Assembly: GCA_017449025.1 (NCBI GenBank)
Contig: JAFSKJ010000063.1
Coordinates: forward strand, 18,463-82,462
Direction of reading: 5' to 3'
Source of the DNA: Prevotella sp.
GTDB taxonomy: Bacteria; Bacteroidota; Bacteroidia; Bacteroidales; Bacteroidaceae
Length of the DNA stretch: 64,000 nucleotides
The notes below the pieces were generated by a model. It had not been told where the DNA came from and ran no database searches. It was given only the letters and a program-made list of their open reading frames with translations. Positions within the stretch are counted from its first letter, which is position 1; every line of letters starts with the position of its first letter. Of this stretch, positions 28,463 through 32,402 are shown in pieces. Both the position numbers and the translations under genes were made by a program.

Positions 28463-30781
28463 ATGACTATGATAAAAAATGCAATGATCACCCTGCTGAC
28501 TGCCATGGCCACCATGACCGCCAGCGCACAGAACCCTATTGTACAGACGTGGTTCACCAGCGATCCCGCACCTTTGGTGGTGGGCGACAAAATGTATGTC
28601 TATACCGGCCACGACGAAGACAATGCCGACTTCTTCTGGATGCAGGAGTGGCGAGTCTATTCCACCGACGACATGGTGAACTGGCAGGACCACGGCTCGC
28701 CCTTGGCATTGGAGAGCTTCTCATGGGCCGACGACCGCGCGTGGGCCAGCCAGACCATAGAGCGTGACGGAAAGTTCTATTGGTATATCTGCGCCCATTC
28801 CAAACTGTCGGGCGGCATGGCTATAGGCGTTGCTGTCAGCGACTCGCCCACAGGGCCGTTCAAGGATGCCATCGGCAAGCCCCTCTTCGAGAACGGCTCT
28901 TGGGACCATATCGACCCCACGGTGATGATCGAAAGCCTCCCTCTACCCCCCTCCCAAGGAGGGGGAACCAAGCAGCAGGCTTGGCTTATGTGGGGTAACC
29001 CGCAGGTGTACTACTGCAAGCTTAACGACGACATGATTTCCATCGACGGTGAGGTGCAGAAGCTCGACATGACCGAGGAGGCTTTCGGCAGCCCTATCAT
29101 GAGCAAGCGCGAGAAAGGCAAAAAGTATAAGGACTCGTATGTCGAGGGGCCTTGGCTGATGAAAGCCCCCCTTTCATCCCCCCTTGGGGGGAAACCCAAA
29201 CGCGCAGCATCATCCCCCCAAGGGGGGACAGGAGGGGGGCTTTACTATCTTCTCTATGCCGCCGGTGGCGTCCCAGAACATATCTCCTACAGCACAGCCT
29301 GGTCGCCCACAGGGCCCTGGACATACGCCGGCGAGATAATGCCACTGTCTGACACAGGGTCGTTTACAAACCACTGCGGCGTTGCCGACTTCAAGGGTCA
29401 CAGCTATTTCTTCTACCACACCGGCAAGCTGCCCGGCGGTGGCGGCTTCGGACGTAGCGTGGCTGTCGAGGAGTTCCAGTACAATGCCGACGGCTCGTTT
29501 CCCACCATCCTTCCCACTGCCGAGGGCGTAAAGCCCATCGCCACCTTCAATCCCTTCCGTAAGGTGGAGGCTGAGACGATGGCTTTCTCCAAGGGCGTGA
29601 AGACCGAGCAGAACGATGAAGTGGGCGTCTACGTAACCGACATACATAACGGCGACTACATCAAGCTGCAGAACGTGAAGTTCGACGGCAACATCACCAA
29701 GCAGTTCACCGCCCGTGTGGCCAGCGGCCTGCGTGGCGGACAGATAGAGGTACGCATCGACAGCCTCGGAGGAAAACTCCTCGCCACACTTGACGTGCCG
29801 GGCACCGGAGGTTGGGAGAAATGGCAGACGCTGACAGTCGACTTTACCGAGAAGGGCACAGGTACCCATGACCTCTACCTCGTCTTCACTGGCCGAAAGG
29901 GACCGAAGCTCTTCAATTTCGACTGGTGGCAGATTGTGGGCTTGCTGTCGCAGGTCGTAGAGGACGGCGGCACAGGACAGTACAAGGCCATCATGAAGGA
30001 GGAGGCCACCCTTGAGGCCCATACCGTCTTCGTGCCTCAGGACCTGTCGGCATTCAGCAAGAAGAAGCCGCTGCCCGTGCTGGTATGGGGCAATGGTGCA
30101 TGCACCAATTCGCCGTGGGAACACTATAAGTTCCTCAACGAGATTGCGTCGCACGGCTATCTTGTGCTGGCCACTGGCTACATACCCATGGAGGAGAAGC
30201 CCTACAACGGCCCCATGTCAACCACCCAGCAGCAGATAGAGTCCATAGACTGGGCCATAGCCCAGAACGCCGATCCCACCTCACCTTATTATAATAAGAT
30301 AGACGTGAAGAACATCTGCGTAGCCGGCATGTCGTGCGGTGGCCTGCAGACACTCTACAACTGCGCCGACCCCCGCATCAAGACGCTGATGATATGCAAC
30401 AGCGGACTCTTCAAGAACTCTAACCGCAATCAGGCCGTCGGCGGCATGCCCATGCCCGACAAGTCGAAACTTAAGGAGATACACACCAGCATTATCTATA
30501 TCCTCGGCGGCAAGACCGACATTGCCTACGAGAACGGCATGGACGACTTCCACCAGATAAGCCACGTGCCCTGCTGCGCCACCAACTTCCCCGTGGGCCA
30601 TGGCGGCACCTACCGCCAGCCTCATGGCGGCGAGTTCACGGTGGTTGCCCTGAACTGGCTCAACTGGCAGCTCAAGGGCGACAAGCAGTCGGCCAAGATG
30701 TTCAAGGGAACCGACTGCGGGCTGTCGAAGCGTGAAGGGTGGACCATTGAGAAGAACGCCCTGTTCGATAAGCTCAAGTAG
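28463..30781 (+). CDS. GH43 arabinoxylan hydrolase-CBM6-esterase fusion
   Basis: This 772-residue bifunctional enzyme has a signal peptide ending ASAQ. The GH43 propeller includes D34 in SDPAPLVVGDKMYVYTGHD, the modulating Asp in HIDPTVMIE and the acid Glu in YVEGPWLMK. A CBM6-like module spans about 365-490 (VEAETMAFSKGVKTEQ, FNFDWWQI). The last 270 residues are an alpha/beta-hydrolase: the nucleophile is S624 in VAGMSCGGLQT, the probable acid is in GGKTDIAYENG and the His in VGHGGTYR. It would remove arabinose and an ester group from the same substrate. The GH43 part carries three GC-rich palindromic repeats in frame (28931-28983, 29162-29197, 29211-29243), absent or different in the GH43 paralogue 50 bp downstream. 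No secretion tail. Confidence 0.9.
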   Translation: MTMIKNAMITLLTAMATMTASAQNPIVQTWFTSDPAPLVVGDKMYVYTGHDEDNADFFWMQEWRVYSTDDMVNWQDHGSPLALESFSWADDRAWASQTIERDGKFYWYICAHSKLSGGMAIGVAVSDSPTGPFKDAIGKPLFENGSWDHIDPTVMIESLPLPPSQGGGTKQQAWLMWGNPQVYYCKLNDDMISIDGEVQKLDMTEEAFGSPIMSKREKGKKYKDSYVEGPWLMKAPLSSPLGGKPKRAASSPQGGTGGGLYYLLYAAGGVPEHISYSTAWSPTGPWTYAGEIMPLSDTGSFTNHCGVADFKGHSYFFYHTGKLPGGGGFGRSVAVEEFQYNADGSFPTILPTAEGVKPIATFNPFRKVEAETMAFSKGVKTEQNDEVGVYVTDIHNGDYIKLQNVKFDGNITKQFTARVASGLRGGQIEVRIDSLGGKLLATLDVPGTGGWEKWQTLTVDFTEKGTGTHDLYLVFTGRKGPKLFNFDWWQIVGLLSQVVEDGGTGQYKAIMKEEATLEAHTVFVPQDLSAFSKKKPLPVLVWGNGACTNSPWEHYKFLNEIASHGYLVLATGYIPMEEKPYNGPMSTTQQQIESIDWAIAQNADPTSPYYNKIDVKNICVAGMSCGGLQTLYNCADPRIKTLMICNSGLFKNSNRNQAVGGMPMPDKSKLKEIHTSIIYILGGKTDIAYENGMDDFHQISHVPCCATNFPVGHGGTYRQPHGGEFTVVALNWLNWQLKGDKQSAKMFKGTDCGLSKREGWTIEKNALFDKLK
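28931..28983 (+). repeat. Coding-embedded double-hairpin repeat (copy 1)
   Basis: Stem 1: CCCCCTCC (28947-28954), loop CAA, GGAGGGGG (28958-28965). Stem 2: CCAAGC-AGCAG-GCTTGG, about 28968-28984. It encodes SLPLPPSQGGGTKQQAW. The paralogous GH43 at 30828 has VFVDDDGQAYMYWG where this one has about 11 extra residues. The copy closely matches the complement of 47286-47338, including the 16-nt word AAGCAGCAGGCTTGGC. Confidence 0.8.
29162..29243 (+). repeat. Inverted pair of coding-embedded palindromic repeats (copies 2a, 2b)
   Basis: Copy 2a (29162-29197) starts AAAGCCCCCCTTTCATCC and contains CCCCCCTTGGGGGG. Copy 2b (29211-29243) contains CCCCCCAAGGGGGG and ends GGAGGGGGGCTTT; it is the reverse complement of 2a apart from a few bases. 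They encode the low-complexity peptide APLSSPLGGKPKRAASSPQG just before the strand YYLLYA of the GH43 domain. Confidence 0.85.
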
Positions 30782-30827
30782 AAACGGCCGACAGATTACA
30801 GTCACTATTTTTAGAACATACTGACAG

Positions 30828-32402
30828 ATGAAAAAGAAGACAATAATATCCCTTGTGCTCTTTGCTGCAACATTGTCGCAGCCCGCCCTTGCACAGCCTC
30901 AGGACCGCACGATGCCGATGCCCGACCTGAACAAGGTGAACATGCCCCTGTTCCAGACCAAGTACACAGCCGACCCCTCGCCCTTAGTGGTGGGCGACAC
31001 ACTGTTCCTCTATACGTCGCACGATGCCTCGCCCGAGGACATTCCCGACGAGAACGAGAAGAATTCTGCCGGCTTTTTCATGTACGACTGGCTGCTGTGG
31101 TCTACCACCGACATGGTGAACTGGACTGAGCACGGGACAGTGGCATCGCTGAAGGAATTCTCGTGGCGCAGCCGTGAGAACGGTGCCTGGGCCATACAGA
31201 CCGTTGAGCGCAATGGCAAGTACTACCTCTATGCCCCACTCCACGGCCATGGCATAGGTGTGCTCGTGGCCGACTCGCCCTACGGTCCCTTCCACGACCC
31301 GTTAGGCAAGCCCATGGTGTGGCAGAAAGAGCACTGGGAAGACATAGACCCCTCGGTATTCGTCGACGACGACGGCCAGGCTTATATGTACTGGGGCAAC
31401 CCCTATACCTACTGCATAAAGCTGAACAAGGACATGATCTCCACCGAGGGCGACATCTTGGTGCTCAACCCGCAGGACGGAGTGATGCGCCCCGTCAATG
31501 AGGAGGGTGCGAAGATCAACCTCCGCGTGCCGAACGAGGAGAAAGCTAACTGGAAAGTGAAGAACTATCAGGAGGGACCGTGGTTCTACAAACGCACCAT
31601 GCCGACGGCCATTGACCAACAGGGCCTCCCCCCAAGGGGAGACAGGAGGGGGGCTTATTATCTGGCCTACGCCACCACATGCTGTCCAGAGGCGCTTGGC
31701 TATGCCATGAGCGACTCACCTCTCGGCCCCTGGGAGTGGAAGGGCTACATACAGCGGCCAACAGAGCGAGACCGCGGAAACCATCCGGGCATCTGCGATT
31801 TCAAGGGGCGCAGTTACGTCTTCGGCCAGAACTACGACCTTATGCACTTAGACACATACGTGCATCACGAGCGCCGCAGTGTCAGCGCCAGCGAGATTGT
31901 CTACTTGGCCGACGGCACCATACCAGAGATTCCCTACTGGTTAGACCAGAAGCCTATGCAGCAGCTGCACTGGCTGAACCCCTACGAGCGAGTTGAGGCC
32001 GAGACGATGGCATGGGGAAAGGGCCTGAAGAGTGCTAAGATGGGCATACCCAACACTGGCGTGGTTAAGGATATGCCTGAGTCGACGGGCAAGAAGAACA
32101 TGTATGTCTACGACCTTGACAAGGGCGAGTACATCCGCCTACGCGGTGTAGACTTCGGTGAAGGTGCCAAGCTGTTCAGCATCGTGGCCGCTGCCACGGG
32201 CACGGCCACACTCACCCTGCGCATAGACAGTGCCGACGGACCTGCAATTGCCACCGTAGCCATTAAGCCTACCGGCTCTGCAGACAGCTACAAGGCTTTT
32301 TCGGCCAAGGTGAAAGGAGCTGCAAGCGTACACGACCTATACATCTGTATAGACAAGGCCGACGGCGACGTACGGTTAGACTGGTGGCAGTTTCACAAGT
32401 AG
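30828..32402 (+). CDS. GH43 arabinoxylan arabinofuranohydrolase-like enzyme with CBM6
   Basis: The 524-residue protein has a signal peptide ending PALAQ. GH43 landmarks are D49 in TADPSPLVVGDTLFLYTSHD, DIDPSVFVDDDGQAYMYWG (modulating Asp) and the acid Glu in YQEGPWFYK. A CBM6-like C-terminal module (VEAETMAWGKGLKSAKMG ... VRLDWWQFHK) ends the protein with no secretion tail. It is a paralogue of the GH43 half of the fusion upstream and probably acts on differently substituted arabinoxylan fragments in the periplasm. It carries one GC-rich palindromic repeat (31623-31660) in the same loop as copy 2b of its paralogue. It is the last gene of the plus-strand series; two strong palindromes follow. 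Confidence 0.9.
   Translation: MKKKTIISLVLFAATLSQPALAQPQDRTMPMPDLNKVNMPLFQTKYTADPSPLVVGDTLFLYTSHDASPEDIPDENEKNSAGFFMYDWLLWSTTDMVNWTEHGTVASLKEFSWRSRENGAWAIQTVERNGKYYLYAPLHGHGIGVLVADSPYGPFHDPLGKPMVWQKEHWEDIDPSVFVDDDGQAYMYWGNPYTYCIKLNKDMISTEGDILVLNPQDGVMRPVNEEGAKINLRVPNEEKANWKVKNYQEGPWFYKRTMPTAIDQQGLPPRGDRRGAYYLAYATTCCPEALGYAMSDSPLGPWEWKGYIQRPTERDRGNHPGICDFKGRSYVFGQNYDLMHLDTYVHHERRSVSASEIVYLADGTIPEIPYWLDQKPMQQLHWLNPYERVEAETMAWGKGLKSAKMGIPNTGVVKDMPESTGKKNMYVYDLDKGEYIRLRGVDFGEGAKLFSIVAAATGTATLTLRIDSADGPAIATVAIKPTGSADSYKAFSAKVKGAASVHDLYICIDKADGDVRLDWWQFHK
31623..31660 (+). repeat. Coding-embedded palindromic repeat (copy 3)
   Basis: Core CCCCCCAAGGGG followed by AGACAGGAGGGGGGCTTATT. This aligns with copy 2b (29211-29243) in sequence and in position, immediately before the YYLAYA strand of GH43. 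It encodes GLPPRGDRRGAYY. Confidence 0.8.

Follow-up and report, generated by a model that had tools for sequence, protein, structure and literature searches.

Palindromic repeats that reside in frame within genes have been a puzzle since the Rickettsia palindromic elements (RPEs). Intragenic repetitive extragenic palindromic (REP) sequences and in-frame RPEs are both known, and a 2013 survey (PMC3733652) describes a CGTC class of REPs without a dedicated transposase, defined by a CGTC (or TGTC/CCTC) tag at one end and a stem starting with AT pairs. A second study (PMC6006769) reports in-frame REPs in the genes of REP-associated tyrosine transposases (RAYTs), subclass 2.4, abundant in Cyanobacteria and Bacteroidetes, and a third (PMC12907096) describes a Caulobacter DUF559 protein as Vsr-like and of the PD-(D/E)XK type. 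Here we analyze a 64,000-nucleotide stretch of a Prevotella sp. contig (JAFSKJ010000063.1, positions 18,463 to 82,462; the window), where three palindromic elements are translated in frame within two neighboring GH43 genes. With a probability of about 0.7, these elements are nuclease-less relatives (one inverted pair and two single arms) of a mobile unit in which a DUF559 nuclease gene lies between inverted palindromic arms. A nuclease between the arms makes the origin of in-frame palindromic repeats testable.

Palindromic elements in two GH43 genes

The source draft genome (G000; 3.50 Mb, 80.65% complete; L and G numbers are the locus and genome labels of this analysis) was scanned with R1, a covariance model built from 23 arms. 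The arms of the window belonged to the R1 training set, so that their R1 scores are partly given by construction. The host genes and elements are:

28463..30781, + strand: host gene 1, GH43 and CBM6 with a C-terminal alpha/beta-hydrolase-like region, 772 amino acids (open reading frame and Pfam)
28933..28966, + strand: element 1 (site 1), single palindromic arm with core CCCCTCCCAAGGAGGGG; R1 match C113:47395-47428, 35.6 bits, training row
29163..29242, no strand assigned: element 2 (site 2), 80-bp inverted pair with arms 29163-29196 (+) and 29209-29242 (-); R1 44.5 and 45.2 bits, training rows
30828..32402, + strand: host gene 2, paralogous GH43 and CBM6, 524 amino acids (open reading frame and Pfam)
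31623..31656, - strand: element 3, single arm directly ahead of YYLAYA in host gene 2; R1 match C113:50085-50118, 46.5 bits, training row

All three elements are open, translated in frame and located in turns of the two GH43 proteins, which alignments identify as hairpin turns between strands. The GC-rich sequences that an earlier note on this DNA had reported are all present and open in frame, but its count of four copies becomes three elements, as the second and third copies are the two arms of the 80-bp inverted repeat. Its comparison of the paralogs holds: gene 1 has an extra stretch at site 1 where gene 2 has DDDG, and both genes carry a copy directly ahead of YYLxYA.

Host gene 1 matches GH43 (2.3e-35) and CBM_6 (1.2e-33), with a weak PETase-like match below its cut-off, and its inserts correspond to amino acids 157-168 and 234-260. 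Element 1 encodes ESLPLPPSQGGG where most orthologs have a short DDDG-type turn, and a near-identical insert is found in L104. The site-1 core differs from the main family and equals the arm core of a DUF559 unit of another genome (L300). Element 2 encodes KAPLSSPLGGKPKRAASSPQGGTGGGL in the K-(R)NG-Y turn ahead of YYLLYA; neither the best whole-length matches (L068-L070) nor L104, which is nearest in the tree, contain it, and a similar element occupies this turn in L120. Element 3 encodes GLPPRGDRRGAY, and its site reads KRNGKYYLAYA in related genes of other species (e.g. L076 and L079).

A dispersed family that keeps the reading frame

The motif CCCCAAGGGG occurs four times in the window (shuffled mean 0.15; one occurrence, at 6698 in L027, is not an element) and has 48 exact matches in the 3.50-Mb genome compared with 4 for the reversed control, the site-1 core being outside this count; the family is thus more frequent than expected by chance. 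R1 gave 89 matches at E<=1, which fall into 61 sites; some matches are the two strands of one palindromic arm and the weakest may be chance. Of the 1117 first-look candidates, 150 were scored. A stricter 32-base probe from a G000 arm, allowing up to 3 mismatches, matched 18 times in G000 (control 0), 3 times in G054 and 0 times in six other genomes of the genus. A common full form elsewhere in G000 spans 73-74 bp: AAGCCCCC... is followed by a self-complementary core (e.g. CCCCCCTTGGGGGG), a spacer (e.g. GACAAACAGTT) and an inverted second arm. Terminal inverted repeats are present in the R1 elements.

Reading frames were assessed with a codon model trained on 25 genes of the window, by scoring 180 bp on each side of every site. 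Coding sequence in one open frame on both sides was found at 23 of the 61 sites (18 of the 45 sites with at least 24.3 bits, E<=0.01). Coding sequence is confined to the left side at 13 further sites and to the right side at 9, and is absent from both sides at 11; the rest comprise one contig end, two sites with coding on opposite strands, one phase shift and one case of the same frame with stops. Some one-sided sites, e.g. C50:70028, also lie in an open frame. The two candidates for frame-shifted gene copies, the phase-shift and the stop case (C27 and C31), turned out to be intergenic, after one gene's stop and ahead of the following ATG, and were rejected, hence no frame-shifted gene copy was found. 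The proposal of a dispersed palindromic family in coding DNA that keeps frame, analogous to the RPEs, is thus supported.

The in-frame hosts above the NCBIfam cut-off are AlaRS (two inserts), MetRS, DnaE and SusC/RagA; those below it are TrpE, a TonB receptor and an alpha-xylosidase, with weak radical-SAM matches for L183, and the hosts of L158 and L176 have no NCBIfam match. The AlaRS gene with two inserts is the only alaS above the cut-off in G000, "only" being provisional at this completeness, and the metG with an insert is the only metG. The earlier note had seen the elements as adding surface loops to secreted enzymes, a theme that does not survive the inserts in AlaRS, MetRS, DnaE and a TrpE-like gene, nor those between genes. 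If Pro/Gly/Ser loops were selected for function in secreted enzymes, the position of the GH43 inserts in hairpin turns would be expected; the family, however, also enters cytoplasmic enzymes and intergenic sequence, and the 32 arm matches at the 23 in-frame sites use all three codon phases and both orientations. A conserved peptide was rejected on this ground, since arms read in this way keep no single peptide, and we give adaptation at the protein level next to no credence.

At three further sites, in a TonB receptor (C132:65299-65426), DnaE (C133:21825-21932) and a receptor-like gene (C19:47832-47947), the inverted arms are farther apart and the reading frame continues through the stretch that they enclose, which is thus host or spacer sequence. 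A further, longer inverted palindrome family, with ends AGCCCCCTTTCGTC and CGTC ahead of the stem, was seen in L013 (C30:14898).

A DUF559 nuclease gene between palindromic arms

A gene-bearing unit of the same arm family as the dispersed copies is present in G000 at C3:13396-13891. Its arms (C3:13396-13429 and C3:13858-13891) are inverted, and exactly between them lies an open frame of 128 residues, which gives the one match to DUF559 (PF04480; E 3.2e-35) in this genome, again provisionally. The unit is flanked by genes that look, by their motifs, like korA and korB.

DUF559 was detected in 63 of 120 genomes of the genus (E<=1e-8) and in 83 of 198 genomes, representing 58 of 103 genera, of a phylum sample (E<=1e-20). 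Arms were scored within 260 bp of the domain on either side, the preceding stretch being aligned with the reverse complement of the following one. A score of at least 30 was obtained at 24 of 30 genus loci (one from each of 30 genomes; the others are L286, L294, L302, L303, L305 and L307), 16 of 29 phylum loci and 16 of 20 loci hand-picked as further copies from multi-copy genomes or for long open frames, i.e. at 56 of 79 Bacteroidota loci. At a threshold of 45, arms persist at 40 of the 79 (19 genus, 8 phylum and 13 hand-picked). None of the 1704 pooled control stretches reached 30: 0/1500 random stretches in 80 related loci (maximum 29), 0/168 off-domain stretches in the same DUF559 loci, and 0/36 small genes with slightly different windows.

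Outside Bacteroidota, 14 loci were examined among 40 matches in a plasmid collection, with arm windows up to 300 bp from the domain. Arms were found in eight of them, S. meliloti, A. lipoferum, two Sphingomonas, Novosphingobium, D. aetherius, D. proteolyticus and Pseudanabaena, with scores of 51-208, shuffling of the same rows giving maxima of 22-28. DUF559 between arms is thereby seen in four phyla: Bacteroidota, Pseudomonadota, Deinococcota and Cyanobacteriota. On a Sphingomonas plasmid (L374), DUF559 with arms lies between sufB and sufC.

Arm similarity tracks nuclease similarity across the 56 loci (Mantel r 0.32; 0/5000 permutations as high): mean arm similarity is 0.75 for the 17 closest nuclease pairs, falls to 0.53 for the 47 pairs that follow and is 0.32-0.34 for the rest. 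An arm probe from L281/L295 (up to 2 mismatches, forward/reverse matches being largely the same palindromes) gave 74/74 matches in G059, 38/40 in G069, 7/7 in G073, 7/11 in G000, 4/7 in G127, 4/5 in G054, 1/2 in G038 and 0/0 in G106, with controls at 0. The counts in G059 indicate that arm families can be very large. The residues E16, W20, Q35, E55, H61 and D70 are invariant in all 79 domains, and D44 is present in 78, so the nuclease looks selected; a relative with a solved structure is 3hrl, an "Endonuclease-Like Protein".

A nuclease gene between matched palindromic ends, together with many nuclease-less copies, has the layout of a mobile element with dependants. The same layout could arise if the palindromes were an independent REP-like repeat serving as landing sites and DUF559 a homing nuclease that enters arms already in place or the space between two of them. 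Insertion at their own cut sites is common among homing genes, 59 of the 61 G000 sites are arms without DUF559 (the other two being the C3 arms), and one R1 element, at C132:28660-28733 (L179), sits exactly at the dyad center of another palindrome, in the order cctaaagggggagt, element, actccccctttagg. The arms on either side of DUF559, however, match each other and covary with the nuclease, and the five DUF559 copies of G127 (L300 and L337-L340) have different arms, which fits units better; we regard landing sites as an unlikely origin.

A quite improbable reading is that the repeats are REPINs (REP doublets forming hairpins) mobilized by a RAYT, an IS200/IS605-type Y1 transposase. Y1_Tnp genes are present in G000, the arms occur as inverted dimers as in REPINs, and subclass 2.4 has in-frame REP insertions in its own genes, according to PMC6006769. 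It is DUF559, however, that lies exactly between R1 arms. Y1/RAYT was rejected as the mover, the four Y1 loci of G000 (20,914 bases) having no flanking R1 arms; the best R1 matches there are a weak pair (~16 bits) located ~600 bp from a stop-bearing Y1 fragment in L202. Two Y1 genes are flanked by other repeats, inverted AATCACGGGGACAGGTTTTTGATTC and the GCAGGCGGTGGAGC type (L199, G000:C50; L200, G000:C87).

DUF559 units in frame within host genes

Many of the DUF559 matches are located inside long open frames. Host domains or PDB-aligned host sequence were found on both sides of DUF559 in LeuRS (L310, L313, L352, L353), MetH (L330, L336), HsdR (L314, L316), the DegT aminotransferase L339, the ABC-F protein L294 and the Type ISP enzyme L308. 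By eye, host sequence continues on both sides in an AAA helicase (L297, L354) and in DegT L356. Residues 301-460 of LeuRS L310 are placed between positions 236 and 240 of 1h3n, and residues 464-627 of MetH L330 between positions 752 and 772 of 9ssp. Arms scoring at least 30 accompany LeuRS L353, MetH L330, HsdR L314 and L316, AAA helicase L297 and L354, and DegT L339.

The leuS gene with DUF559 is the only one above the cut-off, and free of internal stops, in all four genomes searched, two of which (G182 and G232) are 100% complete, G232 being a single contig. Whole nuclease domains within the only leuS of complete genomes imply an in-frame resident with no need for splicing. No protein-splicing (Hint) domain was found by Pfam in 25 DUF559 open frames (E<=1e-4 for 9, 1e-10 for 16). 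A recurrent site is the start of ispF, where DUF559 lies in frame in four genomes (L289, L291, L304, L348). The partners of DUF559 in other open frames are SpoU, an amino-acid kinase, RNase H and DprA (L285, L301, L302, L355), as well as HsdM, a DNA methylase and a glutamine-amidotransferase protein (L324, L309, L319).

Insertion sites in orthologous genes

Host protein from G000, in 14 stretches, served as query against ten relatives, and part of the matches were aligned. Orthologs in up to 10 relatives lack an R1-type insert, the exceptions carrying other loops. At AlaRS site 1, aligned in 10 of 10 genomes, the G000 peptide occurs in none and a similar Ser/Gly-rich loop in G004; at AlaRS site 2, a palindrome-like loop in G009 likewise starts with APLSSP, and a repeat is found in L246. 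The latter, the AlaRS of P. ruminicola KHT3 (G010:C44), has Ser/Ala/Asp-rich repeat peptides in both turns that hold palindromes in G000. The MetRS turn is short in 9 of 10 relatives, with another repeat-like loop in G004, and TrpE and DnaE (8 genomes each) include several short turns and others with longer, different loops. These alignments indicate recent or local insertion at several of these places, in turns that are variable in general.

The GH43 turns were compared across 80 related loci, 78 of which are readable at each site. At site 1, the loop has at most 5 residues in 72 of 78 loci and is longer in 6, three of them with a strict GC hairpin. At site 2 there are 42 short and 36 long loops, and a strict GC hairpin is present in nine of the latter. 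Among the long loops, L120 carries a near-identical element, other palindromes occur in L102, L105, L112, L114, L118, L131 and L134, and simple repeats in L113, L133 and L137. L120 is the sole ortholog with a near-identical site-2 peptide, and its DNA core is alike as well, so the peptide does not recur with unrelated codons. Neither such a recurrence nor a chance-level number of copies, the two outcomes that would have refuted the earlier note, was thus observed. In-frame simple repeats of the AGTTCAAAGTT, AGCCAACAGCC and GTCAGGAGTC types, partly decayed, were also seen at the site-2 turn of Prevotella-type genomes (L071, L083, L111, L113, L133, L137, L143), and the long loop of L143 has an in-frame stop (TAG).

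In a GH43 tree built without the loops (64 of 81 rows had all motifs and 17 were dropped; the bootstrap had not settled), L120 with its insert nests with the short L088 and L089 (support 100/96). The short/long label requires 15 changes, gains and losses pooled, at least 5 of them on well-supported branches. A single ancestral insertion at site 2 was rejected on these counts; repeated gain is likely, with losses and decayed older inserts possible.

These turns also bear on the reading that nothing is mobile now, old palindromes having spread by recombination or gene conversion and the link to DUF559 reflecting shared tolerant spots. The same GH43 turn holding different repeats in different species, the decayed look of many loops, the clustering of the short/long label on the tree (3/500 shuffles as low), i.e. 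partial inheritance, and the lack of a target duplication would all suit it. We consider it highly improbable in view of the arms at DUF559 loci and at no control stretch, the ~74 near-identical copies of one arm core in G059, which speak for recent spread, and the label changes on well-supported branches.

A model for the spread of the elements

We favor a model in which the complete form, of which G000 has one, is a palindromic arm, a gene for a DUF559 (Vsr-like, PD-(D/E)XK) nuclease and an inverted palindromic arm. DUF559 would recognize the arms, probably as hairpin or cruciform DNA, and cut a target; repair or strand transfer, with a DNA intermediate, would then copy the whole unit or the arms alone into the break without target duplication. 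The dispersed copies, their in-frame residence (also in the only alaS found), the arm-DUF559-arm anatomy and the covariation of arms with nuclease are observed, whereas movement by DUF559, the DNA intermediate and the part of selection in keeping the frame are inferred. Neither a target duplication nor a clear target motif was found by eye in the 14-bp flanks of 18 full-length copies. The lack of a duplication and the insertion at a palindrome center (C132:28660) suggest that the route is an unusual one, perhaps with cleavage at hairpins and subsequent repair. Insertion would be blind to frame, intragenic copies surviving only if open, frame-keeping and placed in a tolerant turn; the frame is thus best explained by loss of harmful insertions, i.e. 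by selection rather than targeting.

Several observations weigh against this model. The arm threshold of 30 was set after the genus scores had been seen, several phylum loci score only 31-35, and the arm test finds no arms at 23 of the 79 Bacteroidota loci; nor were arms found at 6 of the 14 loci outside this phylum (Sinorhizobium K101, A. brasilense, Shinella, Methylobacterium, Photobacterium and Synechocystis). In-frame units below 30 include L310 (13), L313 (17), L352 (28), L336 (28), L294 (17), L308 (29) and L356 (16), and the DprA fusion L355 also lacks arms by this test. Since the leuS genes of G182 and G232 have no detectable arms, DUF559 in these LeuRS could be an old or ordinary domain insertion. 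The covariation of arms and nuclease is modest and comes mainly from close pairs, as inheritance of whole units would also give. The L281/L295 probe matches genomes other than its source and is not specific to genomes with that nuclease, and the arm at site 1 is of a different family, the nuclease of which was not detected in G000. The missing target duplication counts here as well, and no movement and no strain-level before/after pair was observed.

On balance, we lean toward a large undescribed class of bacterial mobile elements whose sole protein is the Vsr-like DUF559 and whose ends are inverted palindromes. A large share of the C-rich palindromic repeats in Bacteroidota and other phyla would then be arms-only copies, and either form could reside in frame in essential genes without splicing. 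If so, DUF559 is a candidate for the missing enzyme of palindromic repeats without a known transposase, including the in-frame kind. The elements also offer a natural origin for new loops and linkers in proteins. The earlier note, correct on the palindromes and on frame retention, had missed the DUF559 link and the other repeats that fill the same turns in other species. Among the open-access matches listed, no title or abstract beginning links DUF559 to palindromes or deals with DUF559 mobility, subscription papers and preprints lying outside the search.

Comparison with known systems

The arms-only elements resemble RPEs and CGTC REPs in being short palindromic repeats within and between genes, with the frame kept in genes. 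By eye, they appear to differ from the reported CGTC REPs in that the G000 stems start with C runs rather than AT pairs and show no constant CGTC tag: CCGTC precedes the stem in two AlaRS arms, TGTC or CCTC in some others, and CATC or TATC in several. The nuclease gene found between the arms sets them apart from both CGTC REPs and RPEs.

Inteins and free-standing homing endonucleases likewise place a nuclease domain in frame in host genes, including LeuRS and MetH, and the recurrent places, i.e. the editing-domain loop of LeuRS (L310, L313, L353), MetH (L330, L336) and the ispF start, are a further point in common. Unlike inteins, the 25 DUF559 frames have no splicing domain and many cases have palindromic arms. 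Miniature inverted-repeat transposable elements are similar in that short, gene-less inverted-repeat copies accompany a longer form with a gene; here, however, no target duplication was seen and the longer form encodes no known transposase.

The nearest working analogy is provided by REPtrons and REPINs with their RAYT, where a small nuclease gene is flanked by inverted palindromes and gene-less copies are dispersed. DUF559, however, is a Vsr-like PD-(D/E)XK protein and not an HUH/Y1 enzyme, and the 5' GTAG/GTGG foot ahead of the stem was not seen by eye in the 23 R1 training arms. Taken alone, the arms-only elements would be a variant of RPE-like repeats; the DUF559-armed element fits none of the families tested.

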